A stretch of 35,986 nt of DNA from Candidatus Phocaeicola faecipullorum. Its GTDB lineage: Bacteria; Bacteroidota; Bacteroidia; Bacteroidales; Bacteroidaceae. This document shows, piece after piece, positions 79-21,075 of the stretch. How positions within the stretch are numbered: position 1 is the first letter of the stretch; each line of letters begins with the position of its first letter. The DNA lies in assembly GCA_018884025.1 (NCBI GenBank), contig JAHLFB010000168.1:1-35986 (forward strand). Reading direction: 5' to 3'. The notes beneath the pieces were generated by a model. It had not been told where the DNA came from. It saw nothing but the letters and a program-made list of their open reading frames with translations, and did not search any database. A program made the position numbers and the translations under genes.

Positions 79-3000
79 ATGATGTTTAACCTTAAAAAGG
101 CAAACTTGTCGGACGAATGTTCGATAAAGGGTTCAAGAAAGTTTCTTGGGACTCTTCTGGCGTCGGCGTTATTGGTAGCGCCTTTCCAGCAATCTTTTGC
201 TCAGATTAATCTTTCTATGAAAGGCTCCAATTTAGGTGCTGTGATTAAAGAGATTAAATCTCAGTCAAATTACCAATTTTTTTATGATGACGATCTGGCT
301 TCAACGTCGGTAAGTTCAGTAAATCTTTCCAATGCATCAATATCTGAGGCTTTAGACAAGGTTCTTGAAGGAAAGGGAATCTCTTATAAGGTTGATGATA
401 ATGTGGTTTATTTGTCGAGGAAGGGTAAGGCAGATAATTCAGAAAGCCAGATTGCGGAACAGCAGAGAACTGTTTCCGGTAAGGTGGTAGATTCAAAAGG
501 TGAGCCTCTTATTGGTGTAACTGTACTTGAGAAAGGAACAACAAACGGTGCGATTACAGACTTTGATGGAAATTACAGCCTGGAAGTGGCCGGGCCGGCT
601 TCAGTCCTGCAATTCTCCTATGTTGGATACAAGTCGGTGGAGTTCAGTGCGGCGAATTCCATTATAAATGTCACTATGGGCGAGGATACTGAAGTGCTTG
701 AGGAAGTCGTGGTAACAGCGTTGGGCATCAAACGTTCGGAGAAGGCTCTTTCTTATAATGTGCAACAGGTGAATGCCGATGAAATCACTTCCAACAAGGA
801 TGTCAACTTTGTCAATTCTTTGAGTGGTAAGGTTGCGGGTGTCACTATCAACGCATCGTCGTCCGGAGTGGGTGGTATATCAAAGGTTGTTATGCGTGGT
901 ACGAAGTCAATCATGCAGTCGTCCAATGCACTATATGTAATAGATGGAGTTCCGATGTATTCGGCTAACAACAAGGGAGGCACGGAATTCGATTCCAGAG
1001 GAGCCACGGAACCTATAGCCGATATCAACCCTGAAGATATAGAGTCGATGTCCGTCCTTACAGGTGCGGCGGCAGCAGCACTTTATGGTTCCGATGCAGC
1101 AAACGGCGCTATTGTGATTACCACTAAGAAAGGCAAGGAAGGCAGGGTAAGGATAACAGTCAACAGTAACACGGAATTCACAAACGTTTTTGTGGCCCCT
1201 GACTTTCAGAACCGTTATGGAACAGGTAGCTCATGGTCGTCTGCAGATATAACACGCAGCTGGGGCGAGAGACTGAATGATTACAATTATTATGGTTATG
1301 ATCCGGTAAGCGACTATTTCCGGACAGGAATAACGGGTACGGAGAGTATCTCGCTTTCCACCGGTACGGACAAGAACCAGACTTACGCATCCGCGGCTGC
1401 GGTCAATTCAAGAGGTATAGTTTCAAATAATAAATATAACAGATATAACTTCACGTTCCGTAACACGACAACGTTCCTTGATGATAAAATGACCCTTGAT
1501 GTAGGTGCAAGCTATATTATGCAAGGTGACCAGAATATGGTGAACCAAGGTACATACAACAATCCTATCGTAGGAGCATATTTGTTCCCGAGAGGAAACG
1601 ACTGGGAAGATATCAAGATGTACGAAAGGTACGACGCGACACGAAAAATCAATACACAGTATTGGCCTGTTGGTGATGCGGGTATGGTTATGCAGAACCC
1701 GTATTGGATAAATTACAGGCAGCTGAGGAATAATAAAAAGGACAGGTATATGTTTAATGCCAGTCTTAACTATAAGATTTTGGATTGGTTAAGTGTGAGC
1801 GGACGTGTACGTCTTGACAATTCAAACAATACTTATACTGAGAAATATTATGCCGGAACTAATACTCAGATGACAGAATTGTCAACACGCGGTTTGTATG
1901 CCATAGAGAAGAGTTCTGACAAGCAGCTATATGCCGATTTTCTGATAAATATAAACAAGAATTTCGGCGAAGACTGGTCTTTGCAGGCAAACGTCGGAGG
2001 ATCATTTACTGATATGAGATATGATTTCTTGAAGAACAGGGGACCTATTGCCGATGAGACATTTGAAGGTGAAGTTCCTGGGCTGGCAAACGGTTTCTAT
2101 GTTCAGAACTTGAGTACAAGGAAAACGCAAAAGTTGCAAGAAGGATGGAGGGAACAGACACAGTCTTTGTTCGCGTCTGCCGAAGTTGGATATAAGAGCA
2201 CATATTATTTGACTCTCACAGGACGTAATGACTGGCCTTCACAGCTTGCCGGACCTAATTCCAATAGCAAATCATTCTTCTATCCGTCAGTGGGAGCGTC
2301 TGTCGTATTGACAGAGCTGATGCCTAACTTGAACAGAGATTACCTGTCGTATATGAAAGTGAGAGCATCTTTCGCCTCAGTAGGTACTGCTTTTGAAAGA
2401 TATATTGCAAACCCGCGTTATGAATGGATTGAAAGTTCCGGACAATGGAGTAATACTACTCAGTATCCTATGTATAATCTGAAGCCGGAACGTACAGAAT
2501 CATGGGAAGTCGGTTTGAGCATGAGATTCTTTAAAGATTTCAATCTTGACTTGACTTATTATAACACACTGACAAAGAACCAGACATTCAATCCTGAACT
2601 TGGAGTGTCCGGATATTCAAAACTGTACATACAGACAGGTGCGGTAAGGAACCAGGGCGTGGAACTTTCATTGGGGTATGAGAAAACGTGGAACAAGTTT
2701 ACCTGGAACAGCAATTATACATTCTCTACAAACAAAAATAAGATTGTGACTTTGGCCGACAATGCCATAAACCCTGCCACAGGAGAAGCATTCTCTATCA
2801 GCACGCTTAATATGGGAGGTCTGGCTTCCACACGTTTCCTTTTGAAAGAAGGAGGCTCCATGGGGGATGTATATTCTAACATGGATTTGCAGCGTGATGA
2901 CAAGGGGAATATATATATAGCCGATAATGGCAGACCGGTGACGGAAAAGATTGCTAATTCTGATGATTACATTAAGCTGGGAAGTGTGTTGCCTAAGGCA

Positions 3001-3486
3001 AATATGGCATGGAGAAACAGCTTCTCATGGAAGAACTTTAATTTCGGTTTCATGGTTTCTGCACGTTTGGGAGGAGTGGTATTCTCACGTACACAGGCTT
3101 TGCTTGATGATTTCGGGGTATCCGAATCGACTGCCGCAGCAAGAGACCGGGGGTATGTAATGGTGAATGGCAATGACCGTATTACCCCGGAAAACTGGTA
3201 TCGTACGATAGGCAGCGGCGATGCTGTGGCCCAATATTATACTTATTCTGCCACTAACGTACGCTTGCAGGAAGCTTCTATAGGTTATACATTCCCGAAG
3301 AAGATGTTGGGAGATGTTTGCGATTTGTCTATTTCTCTTGTAGGACGTAATTTGTGGATGATTTATTGCAAGGCTCCATTCGATCCTGAAAGTGTGGCGT
3401 CAACGGAGAATTTCTATCAAGGTATAGATTACTTTATGATGCCTTCCACGCGTAATATAGGCTGTAATGTTACTTTAAAATTTTAA
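79..3486 (+). CDS. SusC-like TonB-dependent outer-membrane transporter with N-terminal STN signalling domain
   Basis: Outer-membrane importer that with its SusD lid should take glycans into the periplasm. An N-terminal hydrophobic stretch (about residues 22-41) ending SFA|Q fits a signal peptide, although the n-region is long. Residues about 43-115 resemble an STN (secretin/TonB N-terminal) domain, used by FecA-like receptors to signal to a FecR anti-sigma factor. Residues about 130-212 are a carboxypeptidase-regulatory-like domain (SGKVVDSKGEPLIGVTV), followed by a TonB-box/SusC signature (EVVVTALGIKR, near 209), a plug (YVIDGVPM; LTGAAAAALYG) and a long barrel ending in an aromatic-type C-terminus (LKF). 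At 1135 aa it is 112 residues longer than the paralogue at 12177, which is roughly the STN domain. Two adjacent ATGs (79, 82) make the exact start uncertain. SusD follows after 12 bases. No convincing promoter lies in the 78 bases upstream. Confidence 0.95.
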   Translation: MMFNLKKANLSDECSIKGSRKFLGTLLASALLVAPFQQSFAQINLSMKGSNLGAVIKEIKSQSNYQFFYDDDLASTSVSSVNLSNASISEALDKVLEGKGISYKVDDNVVYLSRKGKADNSESQIAEQQRTVSGKVVDSKGEPLIGVTVLEKGTTNGAITDFDGNYSLEVAGPASVLQFSYVGYKSVEFSAANSIINVTMGEDTEVLEEVVVTALGIKRSEKALSYNVQQVNADEITSNKDVNFVNSLSGKVAGVTINASSSGVGGISKVVMRGTKSIMQSSNALYVIDGVPMYSANNKGGTEFDSRGATEPIADINPEDIESMSVLTGAAAAALYGSDAANGAIVITTKKGKEGRVRITVNSNTEFTNVFVAPDFQNRYGTGSSWSSADITRSWGERLNDYNYYGYDPVSDYFRTGITGTESISLSTGTDKNQTYASAAAVNSRGIVSNNKYNRYNFTFRNTTTFLDDKMTLDVGASYIMQGDQNMVNQGTYNNPIVGAYLFPRGNDWEDIKMYERYDATRKINTQYWPVGDAGMVMQNPYWINYRQLRNNKKDRYMFNASLNYKILDWLSVSGRVRLDNSNNTYTEKYYAGTNTQMTELSTRGLYAIEKSSDKQLYADFLININKNFGEDWSLQANVGGSFTDMRYDFLKNRGPIADETFEGEVPGLANGFYVQNLSTRKTQKLQEGWREQTQSLFASAEVGYKSTYYLTLTGRNDWPSQLAGPNSNSKSFFYPSVGASVVLTELMPNLNRDYLSYMKVRASFASVGTAFERYIANPRYEWIESSGQWSNTTQYPMYNLKPERTESWEVGLSMRFFKDFNLDLTYYNTLTKNQTFNPELGVSGYSKLYIQTGAVRNQGVELSLGYEKTWNKFTWNSNYTFSTNKNKIVTLADNAINPATGEAFSISTLNMGGLASTRFLLKEGGSMGDVYSNMDLQRDDKGNIYIADNGRPVTEKIANSDDYIKLGSVLPKANMAWRNSFSWKNFNFGFMVSARLGGVVFSRTQALLDDFGVSESTAAARDRGYVMVNGNDRITPENWYRTIGSGDAVAQYYTYSATNVRLQEASIGYTFPKKMLGDVCDLSISLVGRNLWMIYCKAPFDPESVASTENFYQGIDYFMMPSTRNIGCNVTLKF

Positions 3487-3498: not shown

Positions 3499-5124
3499 AT
3501 GAAAAGTTTGATAAACAGTATAATTTTAGGAATGACGACAGTCGCCTTTGTTTCGTGTACGGGCGACTATCTTGAGATAAACTCTAATCCTTACCAGCCG
3601 GGCGACCTCACTCCTGACGGATATGGTTTGAGTTCGGCCATGAGTAATATTGCAGGGTGTGTTGTTTCTCCGGATGTAAATACGGCACAGTTCACCGATT
3701 GCCTTTTGGGAGGTACGATGGGAGGATATTATGCCGATTCCAAGGTAAGCGGATGGGATAATACGATTTCTAACTATAACCCTACGGACAACTGGACTAA
3801 CGTGTTCCTGAAATCGGATAAGATTATACCGGTTTTATATACTAATCTTACGGTGGTTGAAAAACTGTGTGAAGAATCAGGCGATGACATGCCTTTAATG
3901 GTGGCAAATATTATAAAGGTGGCGGCCATGAGCCGTGTGACGGATACGTATGGTCCGATACCGTATTCCCAGATAGGTAAGGACGGAAAGATAGAAACAC
4001 CATACGATCCGCAAGATAAAGTCTATGACAAATTTTTTGAGGAATTGACAAATTCTGTAAATGCTCTTAACGCGAAACTTGTGGATAATCCGGATTACAC
4101 TATCCCTTCTTCGGCTGATTATGTTTACAAGGGAGATGTGAAAAAATGGATAAGGTTCGCCAATTCCCTTAAGATGCGTCTAGCCATGCGAATTGTGTAT
4201 GCTGATAAGGAAAAGGCTCAGGCCAGGTTCGTAGAGGCCATGAATCCTGTTAACGGAGGCATCATGGAACAAAACGACCAGAATGCGATGTGGGATTATT
4301 TCAAAAGCAGCTCAAATCCGATATATGTAGCGTCACGTTACAATTCGGCCGAAGGTTCACTTACAGGTGGTGACAGCCATGCGGCGGCAGACATAATATG
4401 TTATATGAATGGCTATAACGACAATCGCCGTGAAAAGTATTTTGTCAAGTCTGAATATGGCTATCTTGACTATGTCGGAGTACGTAGAGGCATAGAGCTC
4501 AGCACTTTGGGGAAAAACGCGCGTAAGTATTCCGGAATAAATGTTGCGGAATCTGATCCGGTAATATGGATGAATGCGGCTGAAACATATTTCTTGAGAG
4601 CTGAGGCCGTTGCTGTACATGGTTTTACAAATCCGCATGAAACGATGACGGCGAAGGACTTGTATGAAGAGGGCATAAGAAAATCATTTGAACAGTGGGG
4701 AGCTGATTTGGGATATTATCTCGAGGATGATTATAGTACGCCACAAACATATAACGACCCTGAAAGTGTGAACTCGTATTCGGAAAGACTGTCTGAAATA
4801 ACCGTCAAGTGGAATGACGGAGCGGCGCAAGAGGAAAAACAGGAACGCATCATTATACAGAAATGGATAGCCAACTGGACACTCGGGAACGAGGCATGGG
4901 CTGACTATCGCCGCACGGGCTATCCAAAACTGATACCAGCTACGGCTGAGGGAAACAAGAGCGGCGGAAAAGTTGATTCTGAACTCGGTGCACGCCGTAT
5001 GCCTTATCCGGCAGATGAATATGTGAGCAATAAGAATAACGTGTTGGAGGCGGTGTCGGAATATTTGAAAGGTGCTGACGAGATGGGAACATTTATTTGG
5101 TGGGATTGCAAACCTAAAAACTAA
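3499..5124 (+). CDS. SusD/RagB-family glycan-binding lipoprotein (cassette 1)
   Basis: Surface lipoprotein partner of the preceding SusC; in known SusCD complexes it forms the lid over the transporter and binds the incoming glycan. The N-terminus is a lipoprotein signal with a lipobox ending at Cys20 (FVSC), then TGD. SusD-family landmarks include the N-terminal LEINSNPY stretch, DTYGPIPYSQI in the TPR-like core, WMNAAETYFLRAEA, and a C-terminal RRTGYPKLIPA segment. The length of 541 aa is normal. It lies 12 bases after SusC and 27 bases before a GH18-fold gene, so it is almost certainly co-transcribed. The paralogue at 15290 shares the same landmarks (YGPIPYEF, WMNASEVYFLRAEG, RRTGYPNLLPA), supporting a cassette duplication. 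The ligand is not readable from the sequence; N-glycan is inferred from the neighbours. Confidence 0.93.
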   Translation: MKSLINSIILGMTTVAFVSCTGDYLEINSNPYQPGDLTPDGYGLSSAMSNIAGCVVSPDVNTAQFTDCLLGGTMGGYYADSKVSGWDNTISNYNPTDNWTNVFLKSDKIIPVLYTNLTVVEKLCEESGDDMPLMVANIIKVAAMSRVTDTYGPIPYSQIGKDGKIETPYDPQDKVYDKFFEELTNSVNALNAKLVDNPDYTIPSSADYVYKGDVKKWIRFANSLKMRLAMRIVYADKEKAQARFVEAMNPVNGGIMEQNDQNAMWDYFKSSSNPIYVASRYNSAEGSLTGGDSHAAADIICYMNGYNDNRREKYFVKSEYGYLDYVGVRRGIELSTLGKNARKYSGINVAESDPVIWMNAAETYFLRAEAVAVHGFTNPHETMTAKDLYEEGIRKSFEQWGADLGYYLEDDYSTPQTYNDPESVNSYSERLSEITVKWNDGAAQEEKQERIIIQKWIANWTLGNEAWADYRRTGYPKLIPATAEGNKSGGKVDSELGARRMPYPADEYVSNKNNVLEAVSEYLKGADEMGTFIWWDCKPKN

Positions 5125-5151: not shown

Positions 5152-6141
5152 ATGAAATCTATTTCAAAAATAATAATAGGTGCTGCCATTGCAGGTGGAA
5201 CAGTGTTTTCCGCTTGCAGTGATTGGACCGAAAGCGAAGCGTTTAAGGTAAACGAAACTAATATCGAAGACCAGAATCCGGAACTGTATGCTGAATATCT
5301 GGCGAATTTGCGAGAATATCGCAATACAGACCATAAACTGGTGTATGCCTGGTTTGACAACAGTGTGAAACAGTCGTATTCGAGAGCCAATCATCTTACG
5401 GATATACCTGACAGCATTGATGTGGTGTCGCTGATGTATCCGGATAAGCTGGTAAAGTCGGAGGCGGCCGAGATAGAGCAGATACGTGGCGAGAAAGGTA
5501 TGAAGGTAATATTCAATATCGATTTCGAGGCCATCAAGAGTACCTATGACGCCATGGTGGAAGATGCCACGGAAGAAGAACCGGTGACAATCGATTTCCA
5601 CCAGTATCTGACCGACACCTTGTCTTATTCACTCTCTTTGGTAAAAAAGTACAATTATGACGGCATCTGCATTGACTATCAGGGGCAGGTGTCAATATAC
5701 ATGACAGAAGAGGAGAAGAAAGAGTATAAAGAGAATGAGAACAATTTCATTAACGTGATAAATGATTGGAAAGAACGCAATCCGGAAAAGTTGTTGGCTT
5801 TCCATGGAAGGCCTGAGAACCTTGTTGACGGAAGTTTCATATTGGATAAGTGCAGCGCGATATTCATCTCAAGCGAAGAAGCGGTGAGCGTCAATGAATT
5901 GTCCTATATCTTTAATGAGAGTTGTCTTGATTCTTATGCGGCCAAATATGGCGCCCTTGCCGATGTTGAAAATGATGGACTCACGTTGCAATCTTTTGCG
6001 GAGTGGGCGGCTATGCAGCATAGCGGAAATGACTTAGTGGCTGTGGGCGTGTATAATTTGTCAACAGATTATCATGCCTCAGGAAGAAATTATGAGAATG
6101 TTAGAGAAATGATATCAATCTTAAATCCTTCTGTTAAATAA
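5152..6141 (+). CDS. GH18-fold lipoprotein with degenerate catalytic motif, likely surface glycan-binding pseudoenzyme
   Basis: A 329-aa lipoprotein (lipobox FSAC, Cys22, followed by SDWTE) with a GH18-type TIM-barrel layout. The GH18 catalytic signature DxxDxDxE appears at residues 170-177 as DGICIDYQ: the final Glu, the catalytic acid and the key residue, is Gln177, and the first internal Asp is Cys173. Hydrolysis is therefore not expected. Other GH18-like pieces are present, for example an early strand AWFDNS near residue 65 and KVIFNIDF before the active-site strand. GH18-like proteins without the catalytic Glu occur in Bacteroides N-glycan loci, where they are thought to act as surface glycan-binding proteins; that role is inferred here. 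It sits between SusD (27 bases) and a LamG lipoprotein (15 bases). The paralogue at 16895 is broken in a different way. Confidence 0.82.
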   Translation: MKSISKIIIGAAIAGGTVFSACSDWTESEAFKVNETNIEDQNPELYAEYLANLREYRNTDHKLVYAWFDNSVKQSYSRANHLTDIPDSIDVVSLMYPDKLVKSEAAEIEQIRGEKGMKVIFNIDFEAIKSTYDAMVEDATEEEPVTIDFHQYLTDTLSYSLSLVKKYNYDGICIDYQGQVSIYMTEEEKKEYKENENNFINVINDWKERNPEKLLAFHGRPENLVDGSFILDKCSAIFISSEEAVSVNELSYIFNESCLDSYAAKYGALADVENDGLTLQSFAEWAAMQHSGNDLVAVGVYNLSTDYHASGRNYENVREMISILNPSVK

Positions 6142-6156: not shown

Positions 6157-7347
6157 ATGAATAAACGTTTTATTAATAGTACAATCTTTGGAACATTATT
6201 GTTTGGAGCCGCTTTCCTGGCTGCTTGCAAGGACGATGTGGAGAACTATGACAATAGTGTTTACTTAGGCGAAACAGACAAGGTGGAAATGATACTTGTC
6301 GATATAGAAGCGGGCGAGGTTACGAAGCAAGGCACCGTAAGGACTTATCTTGCAAAGGCCCAAAACAGTGACGTGAAGGTTACTTATGGAGTGGATGGCA
6401 ATTTGGTGGCGCGTTATAATGCCTTGAATGGTGATAATGCGGAACTTCTGCCGGCGGAGTTTTACGAAATCAATGACCCCTCAGTCGTGATAAAAGCAGG
6501 CGAGGTGACTGCTTCAAGCCTTGATATAAACTTTATTAATCTTGATCAGCTTGATTATTCCAAAGTATATGTGTTGCCACTTACCATCGTTTCATCAGAT
6601 GTGGATATATTGGACAGCCAACGCAATATTTATTATGTGGTGAAAAAAGCTTCACTTGTAAACTGGGCGGTGAACATGAACAATAACAATCTGTATGTGG
6701 ATTGGGAAAATGCTGATGTGGTGAACAATCTTACAAAGATGTCGGCAGAGGCATTGATAAAGGTTGATGGGTTCGCTGATGACAGGGATTCGAAGATTTC
6801 CACTATCATGGGAGTGGAAGGCAAGTTCCTTATCCGTCTCGGGGATTCAACGATACCGAGCGACCAGTTGCAGATCGCTGCAGACGGGGAGAATGTGACA
6901 TCATCGGATTGGAAGATAAAGGCCGGTGTATGGACTCACCTTGCTGTAACGTTTGATGCGGATACGAAGACGGTGCAGGTCTATATCAATGGAAATAAGA
7001 AAACAGAGAAGGCATTCCAGAACTTTGCGGGGCCTGTAAATTGGGGTGTAAGATACGCCGAGGAAACGGCAACTGAAAGAGGGTTCTGGATTGGCTACTC
7101 ATATGGAGATTTGCGTTACCTGGACGGCTCCATGGCGGAATGCCGTATATGGAACAAGGTATTGACGGAAGAGGAAATCAATTCAGCCAATCATTTCTAT
7201 CGTGTCGCGGCAGATTCGGAAGGACTTGTCTCATACTGGAAACTTAATGACGGAGCAGGAAATACCGTTAAGGATTATACGGCAAACGGTAACGATGCAA
7301 CGGCATCGAATGATTTGAAATGGAGTAATGTAAATCTTCCGGAGTAA
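6157..7347 (+). CDS. DUF1735-like plus LamG/concanavalin A-like lipoprotein, putative surface glycan-binding protein
   Basis: A 396-aa lipoprotein (lipobox LAAC, Cys24, followed by KDDVEN, a strongly acidic stretch like surface-export signals in Bacteroidota). Residues about 30-165 resemble the DUF1735 / BT_3987-type N-terminal beta-sandwich (AEFYEINDPSVVIKAGE; YVLPLTIVS). Residues about 190-396 form a LamG/ConA-like jelly roll, recognised from the run AGVWTHLAVTFD, VQVYINGNKK, GSMAECRIWNKVLTEEEI and LVSYWKLNDG. No catalytic residues are expected; in N-glycan loci such proteins sit beside the endoglycosidase and are considered glycan binders. It lies between the pseudo-GH18 and the active GH18, within one operon. 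A paralogue with the same two-domain order is at 17929. Confidence 0.85.
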   Translation: MNKRFINSTIFGTLLFGAAFLAACKDDVENYDNSVYLGETDKVEMILVDIEAGEVTKQGTVRTYLAKAQNSDVKVTYGVDGNLVARYNALNGDNAELLPAEFYEINDPSVVIKAGEVTASSLDINFINLDQLDYSKVYVLPLTIVSSDVDILDSQRNIYYVVKKASLVNWAVNMNNNNLYVDWENADVVNNLTKMSAEALIKVDGFADDRDSKISTIMGVEGKFLIRLGDSTIPSDQLQIAADGENVTSSDWKIKAGVWTHLAVTFDADTKTVQVYINGNKKTEKAFQNFAGPVNWGVRYAEETATERGFWIGYSYGDLRYLDGSMAECRIWNKVLTEEEINSANHFYRVAADSEGLVSYWKLNDGAGNTVKDYTANGNDATASNDLKWSNVNLPE

Positions 7348-12176: not shown

Positions 12177-15100
12177 ATGAAAAGCAGATTTATTATATTT
12201 TTGCTCTCCATAATTGGATTATGTGGAGTAGCAAACGCCCAAAACATAGAGATAAAGGGGCAGGTGGTCGATAATCAGGGACTGCCATTGATAATGGTGA
12301 ACGTGATAGAAGTGGGTACTACCAATGGTACGGTGACGGACATGGACGGCAACTATACCATAAGCGTGCCTGAAGGCTCTGTAATAGAATTCTCCTTCAT
12401 AGGTTTTACCAGCATAAAGAAAACCGTTTCGGCCGGCATGTCAGAAATAAATGTCACACTGCTGGAAGACACGCAGGTGTTGGACGATGTGGTGGTTACG
12501 GCATTGGGTATAAAGAGGCAGGAAAAGGCTCTGTCGTACAACGTGCAGAGCGTTAAACAGGATGAGTTGACAAGGGTGAAAGACGCCAACCTCATAAACA
12601 GCCTGAGCGGAAAGATTGCCGGTGTGAACATACAGACCAGTTCTTCCGGAGTGGGAGGAGCCACTAAAGTAGTAATGCGAGGAGTGAAGTCGATAGAAGG
12701 AAGCAACAACGCACTGTACGTGATAGACGGTGTGCCGATGTTCAACTCTGTGGGCGAGGAAGGTTCCGGACTTTATACATCCAGAGGCTCTACCGAAGGC
12801 ATAGCCGACCTCAATCCCGAGGATATAGAGTCGATGACTGTCCTGACGGGAGCGTCCGCAGCGGCGTTGTATGGTTCGTCCGCAGCCAATGGGGCAATCC
12901 TTATCACTACCAAGAAAGGAAAAGAAGGCAAGCTGGAAGCCACATTCTCGTCTTCAATGGAGTTTGCCCATCCTTTTGTCATGCCTGAGTTCCAGAATAC
13001 ATACGGCAGTTTGCCAAACGCGGCAGTAAGCTGGGGAGAGAAGCAGGCTTCCACAGGTTATGAACCGACTGATTTTTTCAAGACTTCGGCCACATATACA
13101 AATGCCGTTACCCTCTCCATGGGTACCGAAAAGAGTCAGACGTATGCCTCGCTGGCCGCCACGAATGCCAACGGCCTGATTCCCAACAATACATACGACA
13201 GGTATAACATGACTCTCCGCAATTCAAGCTCTGCGCTCAACGGAAGGTTGAAGATGGACATCGGAGCGCAGTATATCATACAGCGCGACCAGAACATGGT
13301 GAACCAGGGTGAATACATGAATCCGATGGTCGGAGCGTATTTGTATCCAAGAGGACTTGACTGGGCCGATGCCAAGTATTTCGAGATGTGGGACGAGGAA
13401 CGCGGTCTGCTTACGGCGAGCCCTTTCCCACAGGGTGACTATACGATGCAGAATCCTTATTGGGTGGCGTACAGGAACATACGCACATCGGAAAGGAAGA
13501 GGTTTATAGTTTCATTGGGACTTTCTTATCTGATAAAGGAATGGTCGCCGTCCGAGAAGTGGGATATAGCCGCCAGATACAGGATAGACAGAACCAACCA
13601 GGAGTATAAGGACAAGCGTTTTGTCGGTACTGTGCCGACACTGCTTGATGGCGGAACGAAAAACGGTTACTTCGGCCTGGAAAATTCCACCGACATGCAG
13701 AACTATATTGATGTGCTGACCAATCTGACTAAAAACATAGGTGAGGATTATACACTGGCACTGAACGTAGGAGCCAGTCTTACCGACCAGATAAACGACG
13801 GAGTCATCAATCAGGGACCTTTGAGGGAAGACGGACTGCCTAACGTATTCAACGTGCAGAACATAGAGCAAGGTGCTCAGAAGGCGCAGTTCTACCAGAG
13901 AGGATGGAGGGAGCAGACCCAGTCCGTGTTTGGAAGCATGGAAGTCAGCTGGAAAAGATTGCTGTTCCTCACCGTGACAGGACGAAACGACTGGGCTTCG
14001 CAATTGGCAGGCTCGAACAATAAGTCTTTCTTCTATCCTTCAGTAGGATTGTCCGGGATAATCACCGACATGCTTTCGGAGGAACTGAGAAACAAAATGT
14101 ACAACTCCTTATCGTTTGCCAAAATGAGGGTGGCTTATGCGCAGGTGGCATCTCCATTCCAAAGAGGGCTTACAATGCAGCTTAATACTTTCAGCCAGGA
14201 CGACAAGAAGTGGGTGAAAGAAGGATACTACCCGTTGAAGGAACTGAAACCGGAACGCACCAATTCTTTCGAAATCGGATTGACCACGAAATGGATACGT
14301 AACATACTGAACTTTGACATTACTTATTACAAGACTAACACGAAAAACCAGACAATCAGGGCTGCCATGTCCGCTTCATCAGGATATAACTATACTTATG
14401 TGCAGACAGGTAATGTGCAGAACCAGGGAGTGGAAATAACCCTGGGAGCGACGGTTGACTTCGGAAAGAAGTTCACATGGGATACCAATCTTACATACGG
14501 ATATAACAAGAATGAGATAAAGGAACTTGTGGCAAACGTGAAGAACCCTCAGAATCCGAGCGAACCGTTGTTTGAAAAGGATGAACTTTTGAAAGACAAT
14601 TTCGGTAATGCCCAAGTTATATTACGCCCGGGCGGTACATTGGGAGATATTTATGCCAAGACAGACTTCGTGAGGGACGCTTATGGAAACATAGATGTAT
14701 CGCAGGACATAAAGCCAAGGCAAGAGTATCTTAAACTTGGCAGCCTTTTGCCGGATGCCACTATGGGATGGAGAAATGATTTCAGATACGGAAACCTTAA
14801 CTTCGGATTTATGCTTTCGGCCAGATTTGGAGGTATTGTGATTTCGGGAACGCAGGCTGCAATGGATTATTCGGGCGTTTCTAAAGTCACAGCCGATGCC
14901 CGTGACGCCGGCGGAGTTAATCTTGCTCCGGGTGTGGTGGTTCCGGCACAGACATATTATCAGCTGCAAGGCAGACCGAAAGACTATCTGACACAGTATT
15001 ATACTTACAGTGCGACAAATGTGCGTCTGCGCGAAGCGTACATCTCATATAATATCCCCAGGAAATGGTTGGGCAATGTCCTCGACTTGTCTGTATCATT

Positions 15101-15248
15101 AACAGGAAAGAACTTGTGGATGTTGTATTGCAAGGCTCCGTTTGATCCGGAGGCTGTTTCGTCCACAGGAAATTACGCTCAGGGACTTGACTATTTCATG
15201 TTGCCGTCGCAGAGAAGTTTCGGATTTAGCATAAAGGCTAAGTTTTAA
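12177..15248 (+). CDS. SusC-like TonB-dependent outer-membrane transporter without STN domain (cassette 2)
   Basis: A 1023-aa paralogue of the SusC at 79. A signal peptide (about residues 1-21, ending ANA|Q) is followed directly by the carboxypeptidase-regulatory-like domain (IKGQVVDNQGLPLIMVNV), the SusC signature DVVVTALGIKR near residue 105, the plug (YVIDGVPMF, LTGASAAALYG) and the barrel, ending in KAKF. Shared blocks with the first copy include DQNMVNQG, GWREQTQSVF, GRNDWASQLAG and LWMLYCKAPFDPE, so the two are clearly related. It lacks the STN domain, so it should import without signalling to an anti-sigma factor. It sits 20 bases after an unknown lipoprotein gene and 41 bases before SusD. 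GC content is higher than in block C. Confidence 0.95.
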   Translation: MKSRFIIFLLSIIGLCGVANAQNIEIKGQVVDNQGLPLIMVNVIEVGTTNGTVTDMDGNYTISVPEGSVIEFSFIGFTSIKKTVSAGMSEINVTLLEDTQVLDDVVVTALGIKRQEKALSYNVQSVKQDELTRVKDANLINSLSGKIAGVNIQTSSSGVGGATKVVMRGVKSIEGSNNALYVIDGVPMFNSVGEEGSGLYTSRGSTEGIADLNPEDIESMTVLTGASAAALYGSSAANGAILITTKKGKEGKLEATFSSSMEFAHPFVMPEFQNTYGSLPNAAVSWGEKQASTGYEPTDFFKTSATYTNAVTLSMGTEKSQTYASLAATNANGLIPNNTYDRYNMTLRNSSSALNGRLKMDIGAQYIIQRDQNMVNQGEYMNPMVGAYLYPRGLDWADAKYFEMWDEERGLLTASPFPQGDYTMQNPYWVAYRNIRTSERKRFIVSLGLSYLIKEWSPSEKWDIAARYRIDRTNQEYKDKRFVGTVPTLLDGGTKNGYFGLENSTDMQNYIDVLTNLTKNIGEDYTLALNVGASLTDQINDGVINQGPLREDGLPNVFNVQNIEQGAQKAQFYQRGWREQTQSVFGSMEVSWKRLLFLTVTGRNDWASQLAGSNNKSFFYPSVGLSGIITDMLSEELRNKMYNSLSFAKMRVAYAQVASPFQRGLTMQLNTFSQDDKKWVKEGYYPLKELKPERTNSFEIGLTTKWIRNILNFDITYYKTNTKNQTIRAAMSASSGYNYTYVQTGNVQNQGVEITLGATVDFGKKFTWDTNLTYGYNKNEIKELVANVKNPQNPSEPLFEKDELLKDNFGNAQVILRPGGTLGDIYAKTDFVRDAYGNIDVSQDIKPRQEYLKLGSLLPDATMGWRNDFRYGNLNFGFMLSARFGGIVISGTQAAMDYSGVSKVTADARDAGGVNLAPGVVVPAQTYYQLQGRPKDYLTQYYTYSATNVRLREAYISYNIPRKWLGNVLDLSVSLTGKNLWMLYCKAPFDPEAVSSTGNYAQGLDYFMLPSQRSFGFSIKAKF

Positions 15249-15289: not shown

Positions 15290-16867
15290 ATGAATAAACT
15301 CTTTTTATTTGGCATATTGACAGGTATGGCTGTAGCGGGCTGTACTGACAACTTTGAAGAATATAACAGCGACCCATATGGCGTGACGGACGAGGTGCTG
15401 GCTTCGGGGGGTATAGCCGAACAGGTTGCCAACGATTGCGGAGTGCTGGCCGGAATTGTAATACCGCTGCAGGAAAACTTGTACCAGCAATCAATCAGTC
15501 TGGGCTGTGAAACCCTTTCTGGATATATGGGACAGACAAAACACAGCGATATAGGACGATATAATTATAATGCCGGTTTTATCGAATATCCATTTACGGA
15601 TGAGGAGTCTTTGCCGAAGGTCATAAAGCAGTATAACTCGTTGTCGCTGGCCACTAATGCCAGTCATGACAATGCTTTTTATGCGTGGGGAACCATACTA
15701 AAGGTGGCTGTGCTGCATAGGCTGACAGACATGTACGGGCCGATACCATATGAATTTTCAGGGACTGAGGCACAGAAACCATACCAGACCCAGGAATATA
15801 TTTATAGGAAAATGATTGAAGAACTTACATGGTCGGGTGAAACTTTGTCAAAAACGGTTTTATCTTCTGTTGAGAAAAGTGCTTGGCTTACACATGACGA
15901 TATTTATAGCGGTGATTTGGACAGATGGGTGAAGTTTGCCAACTCGTTGAAATTAAGACTGGCCATGAGAGTTTCCGGCAAACTGCCGGATGAGGCAAAG
16001 AAATGGGCAGAGGAGGCTGTAGCCGCCGGCGTTATGGAAAGTAATACGGAGAATGCAATGAAGCAGACGTCTGATAATCCTTTTTACAAGATGAGCAATA
16101 ACTGGGGTGACACAAGATGTGGTGCCGATATCATATCTTATATGAACGCGTTTTCCGATCCTCGTAGGGAGGCTTATTTTGAAAAAACAAACAGAACCGG
16201 CAATGACGTGTATTTCGGATTGAGGGCAGGTGTCGAACTGCCGGCAAAGGAGGAACTGATAAACTCGTCTTCGAACATTTACTCAAGACCGAAGGTTAGT
16301 GTGTCTGATCCGATAGTGTGGATGAATGCTTCTGAGGTTTACTTCCTGAGGGCTGAGGGAGCACTGAAAAATTGGAATATGGGTGGTTCGGCAGAGGAGT
16401 TTTATGTGAAAGGCATAGAATTGTCAATGAATATGCATGATGTGCCTATAGGAGACTATCTGAACAATGAAGCTAAGAGAGGCGCATTCTCCGACAGCGA
16501 ATATCCTAAATTCAATAATCCTTCTTTTTCGTCTGATATTACGGTAAAGTGGTCGGACAACGATAATGATAATCTGGCCAAAATCATTACCCAGAAATAC
16601 ATAGCAATGTTTCCATACGGTAGTGCCGAGGCATGGGCTGAATGGCGACGCACGGGATACCCGAACTTATTGCCGGCTGTGGATTATAACCATGACGTGA
16701 ATAATATAAAGAAGGACGATTCCGGAGCCGACATGTTTGGATACAGGAGATATCCGTTGCCGCAGATTGAGTATTCGGTTAATACAACCAATGTAGAAAA
16801 CGCCATAAAGGAGGATTTGGAAGGTAATGACAGTCCGAACACTAATGTATGGTGGGCAAGAAAATGA
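15290..16867 (+). CDS. SusD/RagB-family glycan-binding lipoprotein (cassette 2)
   Basis: Partner of the SusC at 12177 and paralogue of the SusD at 3499. Lipobox VAGC at Cys18, followed by TDNFEEY. Family landmarks: TDMYGPIPYEF, WVKFANSLKLRLAMRV, WMNASEVYFLRAEG and RRTGYPNLLPA. The length of 525 aa is typical. The gene is 41 bases after SusC and 27 before the second pseudo-GH18. Divergence from the first SusD outside these core motifs suggests a different or broadened ligand range, but the ligand cannot be deduced. Confidence 0.93.
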   Translation: MNKLFLFGILTGMAVAGCTDNFEEYNSDPYGVTDEVLASGGIAEQVANDCGVLAGIVIPLQENLYQQSISLGCETLSGYMGQTKHSDIGRYNYNAGFIEYPFTDEESLPKVIKQYNSLSLATNASHDNAFYAWGTILKVAVLHRLTDMYGPIPYEFSGTEAQKPYQTQEYIYRKMIEELTWSGETLSKTVLSSVEKSAWLTHDDIYSGDLDRWVKFANSLKLRLAMRVSGKLPDEAKKWAEEAVAAGVMESNTENAMKQTSDNPFYKMSNNWGDTRCGADIISYMNAFSDPRREAYFEKTNRTGNDVYFGLRAGVELPAKEELINSSSNIYSRPKVSVSDPIVWMNASEVYFLRAEGALKNWNMGGSAEEFYVKGIELSMNMHDVPIGDYLNNEAKRGAFSDSEYPKFNNPSFSSDITVKWSDNDNDNLAKIITQKYIAMFPYGSAEAWAEWRRTGYPNLLPAVDYNHDVNNIKKDDSGADMFGYRRYPLPQIEYSVNTTNVENAIKEDLEGNDSPNTNVWWARK

Positions 16868-16894: not shown

Positions 16895-17920
16895 ATGAAA
16901 AATATCATAAAAATAGCATGTCTTGGAATGCTCATGGCAGGATGCACGGAAATTGAGCCGTTGGAGATGACTGTCGCGTCTGCCGAAAAGAATTTGGAGG
17001 AAATAAAGAACTATAAATCAACAGAGCATTATATCTCAGCCGTGTGGTTCTCCAACTGGAAGGCCGACGGGAATATGGGCTCTTATCTAAGTACTTTGCC
17101 GGACAGTCTTGATATGGTTATCCTGGAAGGCGAATATGAGGAACTTTCGGAAGCGCAGAAGGCTGACATCAAAAGTGTAAGGGAAGACAAGGGCACGAAA
17201 GTATTGATGAAGGTTGATTTTGATAAAATATACGAACAATACGTCGCCGCTATGGAAGAGGCCGATGAAAGAGGGGAAGAAATAGCGGAAGAACTGGCTG
17301 CCGGCGAGGGCAGGGAAGTGACGATGGAGGATATAGACAAGGCCGTAGAACAGGAAAGACAGAAGGTAGCGGATGAATATTCCGGCATTGGAGATGTCGT
17401 TATGGATAATTCTGAAAAGAATATTTCCGAAGCCGGATTTGACGGAATGACCATTGCCATAACAACAACGGGCGATACATTCTTCAAGGAAATAGTGAAT
17501 GGCTTTATTGGAAAAGCAGGTGAAAGGGTGAAGAACGCCGGAAAAATCCTTGTTTTCGAGGGAAATCCGGGATATGTAAGTAATGCATGCGGCTTGTTTG
17601 ATTACGTTGTCAGCACAACTCATGGCAATGACAGGCTTTCCGAAGTGCAGGAAGCGTTCGACAGCTTTATGTTGATGGATGAGGCCCGTCCGGAGCAGTT
17701 TATACTCTACTTGTCATTGGAGGATGATTCTTGGGAAACCCCGTATGAGGATATATTGTCATCCGTGGAAGTGACAGAGGAGAAATACAAATCATTAGGT
17801 TTATGGAAACCTCTTGGAGGGCAAAGGACAGGCGGACTGGCTATCAAAGGGGTTGAGAATGATTATGAAAATAATTATAACATCTTAAGACAGACTATAC
17901 AATATCTAAACCTTAAATAA
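16895..17920 (+). CDS. GH18-fold lipoprotein with fully degenerate catalytic motif, likely glycan-binding pseudoenzyme (cassette 2)
   Basis: A 341-aa lipoprotein (lipobox MAGC, Cys17, then TEIEP) related to the pseudo-GH18 at 5152: both open with a KNYKSTEH / REYRNTDH-like segment, then AVWFSNW / YAWFDNS and VLMKVDF / VIFNIDF strands. The GH18 signature at residues 183-190 reads DGMTIAIT; only the first Asp remains, the catalytic Glu is Thr190 and the neighbouring Asp is Ala188. A charged, helical-looking insertion of about 28 residues (Glu, Ala, Lys rich, between about 118 and 160) is absent from the first copy. Catalysis is very unlikely; surface glycan binding is inferred from the position between SusD and the LamG lipoprotein. 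Confidence 0.78.
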   Translation: MKNIIKIACLGMLMAGCTEIEPLEMTVASAEKNLEEIKNYKSTEHYISAVWFSNWKADGNMGSYLSTLPDSLDMVILEGEYEELSEAQKADIKSVREDKGTKVLMKVDFDKIYEQYVAAMEEADERGEEIAEELAAGEGREVTMEDIDKAVEQERQKVADEYSGIGDVVMDNSEKNISEAGFDGMTIAITTTGDTFFKEIVNGFIGKAGERVKNAGKILVFEGNPGYVSNACGLFDYVVSTTHGNDRLSEVQEAFDSFMLMDEARPEQFILYLSLEDDSWETPYEDILSSVEVTEEKYKSLGLWKPLGGQRTGGLAIKGVENDYENNYNILRQTIQYLNLK

Positions 17921-17928
17921 CGAATATT

Positions 17929-19302
17929 ATGAAAAGATTATCAATAATAAGTTTTTTGATTTTGTTGTTGTTCCAGACCGCTTGCCGTGAAGAATTCGGG
18001 AAGACTTTGTTCGGCCCGGACAAGACCGTTGCACCTGAAGAGACGACGGATAAGGAACTGGTGTTTGTGAATACGACTGAAGTGTCGGACATTTCTTCGG
18101 CAGGAGAGATAACCGTTAATCCTGTAGATGTGATTTTCTCTTCAGCGCAGCCAATAGGTCAGACAAAAGACGTAACCGTATCGGCAAAATTGAAAGATGG
18201 CAGGATGAGCATGGATAACGTGTTCTATCTGAATGTTTTGGAGGAAGAGACAATACTCTCCACATTTAAAGATAATGCAGGTTACGGAGTGGACTTTCTG
18301 CCGGAAACTGCATATAAGCTGGTGAATGATATGGTGGTGTTCGAGAAGGATGGCAAAAACGCTGTAAACAGTTGCTCAATCCGTATAACCAATAGCCAAT
18401 CGCTTCAGATCAATAAGGACTATTTATTGGCGATACAGTTGGAAACTGTTCCCGGTTTCAATATCGAGGAAACCAATAAGATAGTTTTCATACATGTTAA
18501 GAGGAAAGGTGGTTCAGGAGAAATGGAAGGGGCTGCCGACTTCAGACCGATGTCCGGCGATGACAAATTGGATGCTGACGGAGTGGACAAAGGCATCAAC
18601 AGGAATAACTTGTATTATGAGACAGACAAAATTGATGGTCTCAATAGCTTGTCGGCATGTACGATAGAAGGGCTGATTTATGTTGATTCGTTTAAGGACG
18701 AGAGCGAAAGACAGGATGGAACATTGGGTGGCATATCAACGTTGTGGGGATATGAGGAATTTGGTGACAAAGTGAATTTCCTGTTGCGTTTCGGTGATGC
18801 CAGCGTTTCTACAAATATGTTGCAGCTTGTGGTGAACGACAATAAATATATCATAAATTATAAGTTTAAAGAAAAGAAGTGGTATCATATCGCAATGACT
18901 TATGACGGAACGGAAATCAAATTCTATATAGATTATAGGGAACGCTTCTCTACGAACTATTCCGGAAATATAAGTCTTGCAGGCAATTCGTTCAATTTGG
19001 GCCAATCCTTCAACCAATGGAGAGGGTTTAATGGCAAGATGTCGGAGGTAAGGATATGGAATGTTTCCAGGACTATGAAAGAACTGAAAGACAACGCCTT
19101 GGATGTCATCAGCCTGGATGAGGAAAAGAGTAAGCTGTTGGCTTACTGGAAGATGAACAAGGCAATGGTAGGTTCCGATAATAAAATGATTGAGGACATC
19201 AGCGGAAATGACTGCCATATTACGGTGAAACGCCAGGGAGCAAGTGGCTCTTCTGTAGAACCGGTTGTGGTAATTGATAATGATATTGATATTAATATTT
19301 AA
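17929..19302 (+). CDS. DUF1735-like plus LamG/concanavalin A-like lipoprotein (cassette 2)
   Basis: A 457-aa paralogue of the protein at 6157. Lipobox QTAC, Cys19, then REEFG. The N-terminal beta-sandwich covers roughly residues 40-190 (YGVDFLPETAYKL; KDYLLAIQLETV). The LamG domain covers about 210-445, seen from the run FLLRFGDAS, KKWYHIAMTYDG, IKFYIDYRERF, GKMSEVRIWNVSRTMKEL and LLAYWKMNK. The gene starts 8 bases after the pseudo-GH18 stop and ends 12 bases before the GH18, so translation is probably coupled. It is about 60 residues longer than copy 1. A short hydrophilic and then Asp/Ile-rich tail (DNDIDINI) ends the protein. Non-catalytic glycan binding is the likely role. Confidence 0.83.
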   Translation: MKRLSIISFLILLLFQTACREEFGKTLFGPDKTVAPEETTDKELVFVNTTEVSDISSAGEITVNPVDVIFSSAQPIGQTKDVTVSAKLKDGRMSMDNVFYLNVLEEETILSTFKDNAGYGVDFLPETAYKLVNDMVVFEKDGKNAVNSCSIRITNSQSLQINKDYLLAIQLETVPGFNIEETNKIVFIHVKRKGGSGEMEGAADFRPMSGDDKLDADGVDKGINRNNLYYETDKIDGLNSLSACTIEGLIYVDSFKDESERQDGTLGGISTLWGYEEFGDKVNFLLRFGDASVSTNMLQLVVNDNKYIINYKFKEKKWYHIAMTYDGTEIKFYIDYRERFSTNYSGNISLAGNSFNLGQSFNQWRGFNGKMSEVRIWNVSRTMKELKDNALDVISLDEEKSKLLAYWKMNKAMVGSDNKMIEDISGNDCHITVKRQGASGSSVEPVVVIDNDIDINI

Positions 19303-19314
19303 AAAAAGAAAGTT

Positions 19315-21075
19315 ATGAAACTATATAAATCATTGTATCTTGTAATGTTATGCGTCTCGGCCATTTTTATCGGCTGTAAAGAGGATAACCTCACGGCGGA
19401 AGTACCTGAAGCTGGTAATGGCCAGCTTGTCGGCGATCTTCAGTTCGTATTGCCCGGCGAGGAGAATAGTATAAGCCATAGGTTGTCAGGCGAGGAGATT
19501 GTTTTTGAACTAAGGCAGGGAAAGAATGGCAGCCGGGATGTCGTGGCGGAATTTGACGACTCGGAAGAGACTTTGGCTGAACTCACGAAAAAATATGCTG
19601 ATTTTAAAGGTATAAGTTTGTATAAGTTGCTTGACAGGGATAAATATACTTTGCCGGAATCAGTGATTATGAATAAAGAGCAGACTAGTGTCACGATATC
19701 AATAAAGATAAACAATCAGGATGACGGTACGTACGTACTGCCTCTTGTGTTGAAGTCCGGTGATGAGGAAGTGGGATTGCAGTTTGTTGAGATTGTCAAC
19801 TCTGAAGATTTCAACATAGATATGACATGGGTGGACAGGACTCCTACAGTGGAAGAGCCAAGAATTGTGGCCATAGTAGAGGCCACAGAAAATGATTTGC
19901 GCAATATTGGCAATTATATGCTTTATCCTTATGGTGAAAGTCAGCCGGAAAAGAAACGTCCGCTGTTTGACATGGCTGTAATATTTTCCGCGAATGTTAA
20001 CTTTGATGAGTTCTCATGCAAACCGGTATTATATTATAACGAGGATGTGAAACGTATATTGGATAATATTGATATATTTGTAAGACCTTTGCAGGAAAAG
20101 GGAATCAAAGTATTATTGTCCATTATGCCAAACCATCAGGGAATCGGTTTTTCGAACCTTGATATCAGTAATGACCGCAAGATGATAAAGGATTTTGCGG
20201 CTGACATTAGCTCAGCGGTAAGTAAATACGGGCTTGACGGAGTGATGTTCGACGATGAATATGCCGACTATCCTGCATCATTGGAAGCAGTACAGCCCGG
20301 AAGACCTATGATACAGATGGGTAGCTTCCATTTCTTGATAAAGGAACTGAGAGACCTTATGCCTTACGTTGAAGGACAGCAATGGAAAGACAGGAAGAAT
20401 ATTATAACCATGTACAATATAGGCTACAATAGTAATTCCAGAACCGGTGAGAGGGGATGGTGCTTGTTCAGCAATGACTTTGATTATATAAAGAACGGGG
20501 ATGGTAAATGGAATGATGATGATATGAGCGAAAGTCGTAAGGCTGTAAGGGAATGGGTGAAGAATCCGGAGAACCAGCCTGTGCTGGACGAACTGGCTGA
20601 GATAAAAGTAGGTGAATTGCTTGATTATGTTTGGAATGCCAATTATCAAAAAGCAGATAATTATAATCAATCAAACGAGGGAAACAGATCGGATGGAACT
20701 TGGATTGCAGGAATGGACGCAGAAGTGGCAAAACAGAAATTCGGAGTAGCTTCTTTTGAAATGAGCCTTGAAGCTGACCAATATGAGGGAATAAGGCATG
20801 TAAAGATTTACTGGGAAGAACCTGACGGTACAGGAAGCGGGACTCGCACCGAGTCTAAAGGAGAAACTTTGAAAACGCAGAAAGAATCCGGACAGACATC
20901 AATGATAACGTTTAATGTACAGTATGTGCCGGATACATGGAAAGATTCTCCTTTTACTAATATTTATTTACAGGATTATGAAGGTTTCTTTAAGGGATTA
21001 GGAAATACAAACTCACCAGTGGTGGAATTTGAGGGTACAAATTATGATACAATGACACCATCATACCTGAGATGA
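19315..21075 (+). CDS. GH18 endo-beta-N-acetylglucosaminidase lipoprotein (cassette 2)
   Basis: Second intact GH18 endoglycosidase of the locus. Lipobox FIGC, Cys21, followed by KEDN. A DUF1735-like N-terminal sandwich occupies roughly residues 35-180, followed by the barrel from about 185 (PRIVAIVEATENDL; LFDMAVIFSANVNFD). The catalytic motif at 308-315 reads DGVMFDDE, with Glu315 as acid and Asp313 as helper, in the same context as copy 1 (LDGIFYDDEYD versus LDGVMFDDEYAD). The protein is 586 aa, nearly 90 longer than copy 1; the extra length lies after the catalytic motif, including a C-terminal stretch with Gly/Thr/Ser-rich sequence (TGSGTRTESKGET) near residue 505. Different active-site loops could give a different N-glycan preference. 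It is followed after 34 bases by GH97. Confidence 0.88.
   Translation: MKLYKSLYLVMLCVSAIFIGCKEDNLTAEVPEAGNGQLVGDLQFVLPGEENSISHRLSGEEIVFELRQGKNGSRDVVAEFDDSEETLAELTKKYADFKGISLYKLLDRDKYTLPESVIMNKEQTSVTISIKINNQDDGTYVLPLVLKSGDEEVGLQFVEIVNSEDFNIDMTWVDRTPTVEEPRIVAIVEATENDLRNIGNYMLYPYGESQPEKKRPLFDMAVIFSANVNFDEFSCKPVLYYNEDVKRILDNIDIFVRPLQEKGIKVLLSIMPNHQGIGFSNLDISNDRKMIKDFAADISSAVSKYGLDGVMFDDEYADYPASLEAVQPGRPMIQMGSFHFLIKELRDLMPYVEGQQWKDRKNIITMYNIGYNSNSRTGERGWCLFSNDFDYIKNGDGKWNDDDMSESRKAVREWVKNPENQPVLDELAEIKVGELLDYVWNANYQKADNYNQSNEGNRSDGTWIAGMDAEVAKQKFGVASFEMSLEADQYEGIRHVKIYWEEPDGTGSGTRTESKGETLKTQKESGQTSMITFNVQYVPDTWKDSPFTNIYLQDYEGFFKGLGNTNSPVVEFEGTNYDTMTPSYLR

Follow-up and report, generated by a model that had tools for sequence, protein, structure and literature searches.

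Two separately descended N-glycan capture cassettes in a probable composite locus of Candidatus Phocaeicola faecipullorum

Contig JAHLFB010000168.1 from the draft genome of Candidatus Phocaeicola faecipullorum (GCA_018884025.1; here G000, 3.8 Mb in 289 contigs) is a stretch of 35,986 nucleotides that corresponds to the whole of contig C119, hereafter the window, and carries 20 open reading frames (ORFs) of at least 120 amino acids on its forward strand (Table 1). Among these are two five-gene cassettes, A and B, for the predicted capture and cleavage of N-glycans. We consider it probable that the window represents a composite locus for high-mannose N-glycans, in which an autonomous cassette B of another lineage, together with the lipoprotein gene X2, was inserted between X1 and the first GH92 gene of a frame of the same kind as polysaccharide utilization locus (PUL) 72 of Bacteroides thetaiotaomicron. 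This frame would comprise cassette A and X1, an extracytoplasmic function (ECF) sigma factor gene located on contig C104, and a periplasmic set of genes in the order GH92-FecR-GH92-GH92-MFS-GH130-GH92 (MFS, major facilitator superfamily). X2 with B1-B5 elsewhere stands without adjacent mannosidase or FecR genes. N-glycan loci may thus be assembled by stacking separately descended cassettes before a constant trimming core, not by local doubling.

Two cassette lineages in one locus

An initial annotation of the window placed genes for SusC, SusD, a catalytically dead GH18, a DUF1735-LamG protein and a live GH18 at 79-8862 and, in the same order, at 12177-21075. All ten ORFs were recovered in this order on one strand, and for each of the five gene pairs the best partner inside the window was the counterpart in the other cassette. 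The pairs are related but diverged, as that annotation also described, with identities over the whole alignments of 50% for SusC, 36% for SusD, 24% for the dead GH18s, 25% for the LamG proteins and 22% for the live GH18s. Local similarities amounted to 49.5% over 1030 amino acids for SusC, 34% over 553 for SusD, 33% over 93 for A3/B3 (E 2.6e-12), 26% over 309 for A4/B4 (3.8e-21) and 28% over 251 for A5/B5 (1.5e-15). The presence of an STN domain in A1 only (Pfam), the lengths of the GH18s (497 and 586 amino acids, both with an intact DxE motif) and the different motifs of the dead GH18s (DGICIDYQ in A3 and DGMTIAIT in B3, with DxE gone in both) were likewise confirmed, and B5 contains extra segments relative to A5. 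The shared five-gene order is not due to chance.

We compared the two cassettes to homologs in stretches fetched around matches to PF16141 and B5 in genomes of the genus, family and order, and in a list of 79 distinct named loci among the best 80 of 177 confirmed stretches from one scan. In total, 96 SusC-anchored clusters were obtained, of which 62 contained all five genes 3' of SusC on one strand (the order was not enforced by the cluster script, and L195 differs), and 52 rows remained for the trees after 10 near-copies had been dropped. Nine of these rows are of the B type, namely those of the window, the sister genome G334, L048, L049, L063 and L121-L124, and they formed one side of a branch in all five trees (support of 100 for SusC, SusD, LamG and GH18, and of 99 for the dead GH18). 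Cassette A of the window was placed within a large A lineage, apart from the B-type rows, in every tree. A single clade of cassettes A and B from the window and G334 was rejected for all five genes by the approximately unbiased (AU) test, performed on 23 of the 52 rows, with p values of 0.0016 for SusC, 1.1e-8 for SusD, 6.9e-5 for the dead GH18, 1.2e-5 for LamG and 4.8e-7 for GH18; the forced clade follows from a duplication hypothesis but was tested after the trees had been seen. The copies are hence not each other's closest relatives, and a recent or local tandem duplication is rejected on the basis of the five trees and the five AU tests.

The initial annotation had proposed an old tandem duplication at this locus and had named separate histories of the five gene pairs as evidence against it, and separate histories are what the trees revealed. 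Such a duplication, if the copies had then diverged, one being lost from relatives while the other spread, would account for the identical gene order and strand of near neighbors, for the counterpart being the best window partner of every gene, and for the same A-versus-B split in all five trees. We nevertheless regard it as very unlikely, because B-type cassettes occur at other sites in other genomes, cassette A and the mannosidase genes occur without B, and in midpoint-rooted trees, in which the root was not inferred, A and B part at least as deeply as A does from the PUL16-like and other lineages. A recent event is rejected for five of five genes and an ancient one would need many losses, and the recovery of all five genes after SusC on one strand in 62 of the 96 clusters points to a gene set derived from a much older ancestor. 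The common ancestor of A and B is older, and nothing puts the split between them at this locus. By sequence, cassette A is classified as PUL72-like, and cassette B as a separate lineage that is slightly nearer to PUL16 by its SusD but not by its GH18.

Distribution of the cassettes and the sister genome

Orthologs of B5 with at least 58% identity were identified in 6 of 61 genomes of the genus, namely G000, G334, G182, G097, G305 and G210. Among 393 genomes drawn from the order, no match outside the window's genome was better than 34% identity over 306 residues. In the named list, 10 of the 79 loci are of the B type, five of which are from uncultured Bacteroidales or Candidatus Cryptobacteroides. 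Cassette B stands in series with A in G000 and in G334, where a further cassette, D, lies between them. No match to an A-type gene, FecR or GH92 was found beside X2-B1-B5 in L048, L049, L121, L122 and L123 (L123 has only 0.4 kb upstream, and sigma genes were checked by eye), nor was a C-block match found over about 10 kb downstream of B5 in L121, L122, L123 and L125. In G182 and G097, no A-type match lay within at least 10 kb on either side of B, and extending the check by 12 kb upstream and by 17-20 kb downstream revealed no match to cassette A or the C block, except for a distant SusC (36%) upstream in G182. The two cassettes of G305 are on separate contigs, A on C118 and B on C134, where X2 is preceded by an RNase E/G gene; the contig with B in G210 ends in B3. 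A GH92 gene was present in the fetched stretch of 11 of the 31 other A-lineage cassettes (8 downstream, 3 upstream), and in none of the stretches of the 8 other B-type cassettes, 3 of which end soon after B5. X2 was found upstream of B1 in every fetched B-type locus with sequence there, and in the fetched loci solely before B-type SusC genes.

The locus without B is represented by G013, in which a sigma gene, A1-A5, a gene for a BACON protein, C2, FecR, C4, C5, C6, C7 and C8 follow each other in window order. Similarly, A1-A5 are followed by C2, C4, C5 and C6 on the Muribaculaceae contig L191. The set C2-FecR-C4-C5 was also recovered from G305, G182, G097, G210 and G312, with C6-C8 included in the stretches from G305 and G312, and the gene before C2 varies between a divergent sigma-like ORF (G305 and G312, by eye), a distant SusC-SusD pair (G182) and other genes (G097 and G210). 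In L077 and L078 (G339 and G273), a solitary GH18 gene adjoins C2-type GH92, MFS and GH130 genes, with no match to a SusC-SusD cassette in the fetched stretch. Because G013 has the locus without B and B sits elsewhere without A, the simplest and likeliest history is that B, accompanied by X2, was added to a locus of cassette A and mannosidase genes at a site between X1 and C2. The sharing of one trimming set by two complete capture-and-cleave cassettes had been called unusual; two related cassettes do adjoin a single GH92/GH130 set, but the adjective was too strong, since paired or tripled cassettes occur in several other loci, such as G032 (L033-L034), G257 (L035 and L037), G027 (L039-L040), L183 of B. 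congonensis (divergent), L187 of Proteiniphilum and L182, most of which belong to other lineages of similar gene set.

The sister genome G334, whose BamA is 97% identical to that of G000, provided a framework for joining the contigs. Contig C104 of G000, which ends inside an ECF sigma gene, can be aligned to G334 as far as position 8465 of L060, and the start of the window corresponds to position 8551 of L060. Since both align consecutively on L060, the window most likely follows C104 directly, with the sigma gene of cassette A just outside the window. On contig C4 of G334 (L060-L062), three N-glycan cassettes are arranged in series: A with X1, D, and X2 with B. Cassette D has its own FecR and a sigma-like ORF, and encodes BACON-domain GH18-type, LamG and CotH proteins; its SusC groups with Cryptobacteroides loci and L090, and its SusD with Cryptobacteroides loci. 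The match between the window and G334 resumes at 10278, roughly 200 bases beyond the last ORF on the D side. The C block of G334, 80-98% identical to that of the window, is located on contig C62, which ends about 350 bases before C2, and contig C4 of G334 ends 308 bases after B5. No GH97 gene was found in these 308 bases, in comparison with the 34 bases that separate B5 and C1 in the window, and the best GH97s elsewhere in G334 are 45-46% identical to C1. The GH97 gene after B may have been gained in the window's genome or lost in the sister genome.

At the end of the G334 contig after B5 (the ends of L062 and L215), a short repeated sequence resembles the end of an insertion element. A palindrome is located after the GH97 gene in the window (23131-23174), and a similar one about 130 bases after B5 in G334.

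Between G000 and G334, the proteins of cassette A (window 79-9949 against L060) are 47-81% identical and those of cassette B 73-94%. Dating A against B by synonymous divergence between the two genomes was of no use, with sites near saturation (pS of 0.53 for bamA, 0.50 for ompH and 0.67-0.83 for the other genes), and cassette A may have been replaced in one of the genomes or may have evolved fast.

The remaining features of the window are listed in Table 1. A lipoprotein gene that had been overlooked accompanies each cassette, X1 behind A and X2 in front of B, and the gap between X1 and X2 is 728 bases. Inspection by eye of the SusDs, the dead GH18s, the LamG proteins, the GH18s, X1 and X2 showed a lipobox cysteine with acidic residues after it, which would fit lipoproteins exposed on the cell surface. 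X2 had no sequence relative in PDB at E 1 or better; its structure model (predicted template modeling score, pTM, 0.42) suggests a chain of Ig-like domains and gave matches of low TM score, the top ones mostly to pilin-like proteins. The NCBIfam EndoH model scored 100 bits with A5 and 157 bits with B5, below its cut-off of 300, so that neither GH18 was named by it. Promoter and terminator scans gave results close to chance.

Table 1. Genes and other features of the window, with their predicted assignments.
Feature	Coordinates	Strand	Assignment	Basis
A1	79..3486	+	SusC-type transporter with STN, 1135 aa	Pfam; TIGR04056; 81% to G334 A1, 79% to L072
A2	3499..5124	+	SusD-type lipoprotein of BT3984 kind, 541 aa	PF12741; 703 bits to 3cgh ("SusD homolog"), 700 bits to 8uwv (BT3984)
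A3	5152..6141	+	Catalytically dead GH18, presumed surface glycan-binding lipoprotein	PF16141; 47 bits to 6q64 "Endoglycosidase", 44 to 8uwq "BT1282"; motif DGICIDYQ, E replaced
A4	6157..7347	+	DUF1735 + LamG lipoprotein, BT3986 architecture	DUF1735/BT_3987-like_N + Laminin_G_3; BT3986 architecture as given in PMC11216935
A5	7369..8862	+	DUF1735 + live GH18, EndoF1/BT3987 kind, 497 aa	223 bits to EndoF1 2ebn, 175 to BT3987 3poh; DGIFYDDE; N239 N253 H285
X1	8900..9949	+	Ig-like lipoprotein, follows many A-type cassettes	Homologs 3' of GH18 in A-type loci
Hairpin	9992..10004	+	Weak terminator-like hairpin and T run after X1	Consensus only; 4 such sites in scanned region against 2.1 expected
X2	10678..12156	+	Lipoprotein in front of B-type cassettes, probably composed of Ig-like beta domains	No Pfam family; structure model pTM 0.42
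B1	12177..15248	+	SusC-type transporter without STN, 1023 aa	TIGR04056; Pfam
B2	15290..16867	+	SusD-type lipoprotein, nearest solved relative 4mru (BT1281 of PUL16)	PF12741; 299 bits to 4mru; 268 to 4puc and 4f53; 259 to BT3984 8uwv; name of 4mru as given in PMC11180146
B3	16895..17920	+	Catalytically dead GH18	PF16141; motif DGMTIAIT
B4	17929..19302	+	DUF1735 + LamG lipoprotein	Pfam
B5	19315..21075	+	DUF1735 + live GH18, nearer Streptomyces EndoH than EndoF1/BT3987, 586 aa	121 bits to EndoH, 78 to EndoF1, 69 to BT3987; DGVMFDDE; N, N, H; structure model
C1	21110..23122	+	GH97, SusB-type alpha-glucosidase	596 bits to an alpha-glucosidase structure, 493 to SusB
C2	23281..25497	+	GH92 alpha-mannosidase	Pfam
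C3	25499..26512	+	FecR-type anti-sigma factor, presumed to pair with the ECF sigma encoded before A1	Pfam; pairing inferred
C4	26528..28810	+	GH92	Pfam
C5	28838..31126	+	GH92	Pfam
C6	31123..32478	+	MFS transporter	Pfam
C7	32512..33483	+	GH130 mannoside phosphorylase family	Pfam
C8	33511..35739	+	GH92	Pfam

Predicted function, regulation and modules

The DxE motif of the fifth gene is intact in 46 of the 52 rows, including both cassettes of the window, and the six exceptions comprise five PUL16-like or related rows, in which a dead GH18-like protein takes that place, and one row without the region. All nine B-type rows, that of the window among them, carry DGVMFDDE. The catalytic pair is absent from the third gene in 51 of 52 rows. 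In BT3987, residues N230, N245 and H277 are described as recognizing the alpha-1,6 arm in high-mannose glycans (PMC7021837), and their equivalents are N, N and H in 41 of 52 rows, A and B of the window included; this holds for 8 of the 9 B-type rows, with NNR in L124, and cassette A of G334 has NNW. Because both A5 and B5 keep N, N and H, they are predicted to act on high-mannose and hybrid N-glycans.

The GH18 of each cassette would thus cleave such glycans from glycoproteins at the chitobiose core on the cell surface, where the dead GH18 and the DUF1735-LamG lipoproteins may hold the glycan or glycoprotein, and each SusD-SusC pair would import the released oligosaccharide. In the periplasm, the GH92s would trim the products of both cassettes, together with the GH97 if glucosylated ends occur, before the MFS transporter and GH130 take the core further. 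As a guess, C1 may remove glucose from glucosylated high-mannose glycans.

The idea that the cassettes are specialized for two N-glycan classes was raised in the initial annotation. Such a division, for example with high-mannose glycans handled by A and complex or plant ones by B, could draw on the low identity of the GH18s (22% over the alignment) and of the SusDs (36%), on the extra segments in B5, and on the membership of the dead GH18s in PF16141, a family with active members for complex-type N-glycans (PMC11180146). We consider it unlikely, because both GH18s keep the three high-mannose residues of BT3987. In addition, the complex-type GH18s of Bacteroides are reported to fall in other clusters (PMC11180146), and no sialidase, galactosidase, hexosaminidase or fucosidase family was present among the Pfam matches of the 20 window genes. 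It is likelier that A and B are both directed at high-mannose glycans under different conditions, differing in pH optimum, access to buried glycans or timing, as do BT3987 and BT1285. This refinement of the composite-locus reading stands at about an even chance. It is in line with the precedents of BT3987/BT1285 and Alfi_0882/Alfi_0894 described in PMC11180146, the latter pair being endo-beta-N-acetylglucosaminidase (ENGase) genes of A. finegoldii that, judging by their locus numbers only, probably lie near each other, and with the association of A with STN and a sigma/FecR pair, B-type cassettes having neither STN nor FecR. Against it, B5 was placed outside the BT1285-like clade. The locus opens to test the possible redundancy of two ENGases for high-mannose glycans within a cell and the role of the conserved dead GH18, and further enzymes for deglycosylation may be drawn from the many relatives of the GH18s.

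The cassettes also appear to differ in regulation. A long N-terminal extension of SusC was taken as STN, Pfam having been run on the two window SusCs only. Of the 48 rows with enough upstream sequence, 26 have both the extension and an upstream FecR, 7 have the extension alone, 1 has FecR alone and 14 have neither; all seven B-type rows in this set belong to the last group. Since STN and FecR go together, and B-type rows have neither, A can be expected to detect its substrate through the customary STN-FecR-sigma pathway, which is apparently not available to B, with no STN and no FecR of its own.

Several points weigh against reading the window as a composite high-mannose locus. The dead GH18s of both cassettes belong to PF16141, the active members of which are reported to work on complex-type N-glycans, and the dead BT1284 is described as binding no high-mannose substrate (both PMC11180146). 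A5 is only 41-48% identical to its nearest relatives, so that its specificity could have shifted, and the role of the GH97 is a guess. Genome G000 is a draft that is 86% complete with 5% contamination, and A and B were found together in two genomes only, in one of which, G334, the link of B to the mannosidases is inferred from two contig ends. In G305, B5 lies at a contig end, so that a convergent arrangement of A and B is possible there, although a window-like tandem is excluded. In L063, L124 and B of G334, three of the eight other B loci, the sequence runs out no more than about 0.7 kb after B5, and the check for sigma genes next to B was made by eye only. Finally, the direction of the insertion rests on parsimony, and B may have been lost from G013 and others.

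A further pattern was observed within the 34 A-lineage cassettes, defined as the 52 rows less 9 B-type and 9 more distant ones. Distance correlations in this set were 0.70 for SusC-SusD and 0.80-0.81 within the trio of dead GH18, LamG and GH18, as compared to 0.22-0.40 between the two sets, while all pairs in the nine B-type cassettes gave 0.86-0.94. By rank correlation, SusC-SusD versus the trio came first among the ten 2+3 splits with 0.49-0.51, the runner-up reaching 0.10, and a bootstrap over the rows, which are not independent, gave 0.32-0.69. DNA alignments broke near the boundary of SusD and the dead GH18 in three of three pairs examined, all of which had been picked as outliers. In L084/L085, an 82% match extends from X1 to near the start of the dead GH18, and the trio has 81-88% amino acid identity (synonymous divergence 0.9-1.0), as compared to 56 and 44% for SusC and SusD (saturated). 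The match of L070/L106 is confined to SusC and most of SusD, and that of L076/L072 covers the sigma gene, SusC, most of SusD and part of C2, with the trio unmatched. Faster evolution of the trio was considered as the cause of the L084/L085 pattern and cannot explain it. A group of L106, L064 and L070 was rejected by the AU test for the dead GH18 and GH18 and was borderline for LamG (p 0.052); the groups for these tests were picked after seeing the trees. The borderline value for LamG goes against separate modules, as do two other results: nearest neighbors agreed in 16 of 34 rows for SusC-SusD, no better than the 14-18 of 34 between modules (24-25 of 34 within the trio), and L084 and L085 as a group were not rejected for SusD (p 0.38) or SusC (p 0.068).

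In the A lineage, SusC-SusD and the trio thus appear to have descended largely apart from each other, and alignments break near the junction of SusD and the dead GH18, even though some of the tests are weak. A proposal that could equally well be right or wrong is that the trio is exchanged as one block behind an A-type transporter, joined at this junction, and acts as a transferable recognition head for different SusC-SusD pairs, with the constant GH92 core serving whichever cassettes sit in front of it (A; A and B; A, D and B; another SusCD; or none). If so, the dead GH18 would be the structural or targeting partner of the trio, a role that would account for the wide conservation of its catalytic loss. 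Variation in SusC/SusD alone is reported to alter fructan use (PMC5967196), and PULs to be swapped between core genes (PMC8845570). In the open-licence literature, as far as it was covered, neither an exchange of the trio nor this composite locus was found to be described. The exchange of modules is a lead worth following and the most novel part of this analysis.

Comparison with known systems

The high-mannose PUL72 of B. thetaiotaomicron (BT3983-3994), as described in PMC11216935 and PMC11180146, resembles cassette A with the C block in its SusC, SusD, DUF1735-LamG, DUF1735-GH18, GH92s and sigma/anti-sigma pair. A2 scored 700 bits with BT3984 (8uwv), and the SusC of A is assigned by TIGR04056 (742 bits for A1, 652 for B1), BT3983 itself not being compared. 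A DUF1735-LamG gene followed by one for a DUF1735-GH18 ENGase with DxE and N/N/H is present in A, as are GH92 genes and an ECF sigma/anti-sigma pair, whose sigma gene is on C104, a contig set next to the window by synteny with G334. The window locus differs from PUL72 by an additional, complete capture cassette and by genes for GH97, GH130 and an MFS transporter.

Cassette B is comparable to PUL16 (BT1278-1285), likewise a system for high-mannose capture without mannosidases, and the nearest solved relative of B2 is BT1281 (4mru). It differs in having one GH18 with DUF1735 where PUL16 has BT1284 and BT1285: no stand-alone GH18 without DUF1735 accompanied by a dead BT1284-like protein, and no second gene of the live GH18 type, was found in B. 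Furthermore, FecR is absent from B-type cassettes and STN from their SusC, and B5 falls outside the BT1285-like clade.

Tandem SusC/D pairs are reported for 1028 of 30,951 predicted loci, or about 3% (PMC6499787). These trsusCD PULs resemble the window in that two SusC/D pairs share a strand and a locus, but their pairs are described as directly adjacent with strictly conserved synteny, unlike the whole cassettes of the window, which are separated by other genes and paired in two genomes. In the Gpd complex of Capnocytophaga canimorsus, a SusC-like porin, lipoproteins and an endo-beta-N-acetylglucosaminidase also act jointly on glycoproteins (PMC3128124), although that complex, likened here by description and not by sequence, is a single system for IgG and sialylated glycans. 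Two high-mannose PULs, one of them without mannosidases, are described from the single genome of B. thetaiotaomicron (PMC11180146), and the window locus is a new composite variant of such known high-mannose N-glycan PULs.

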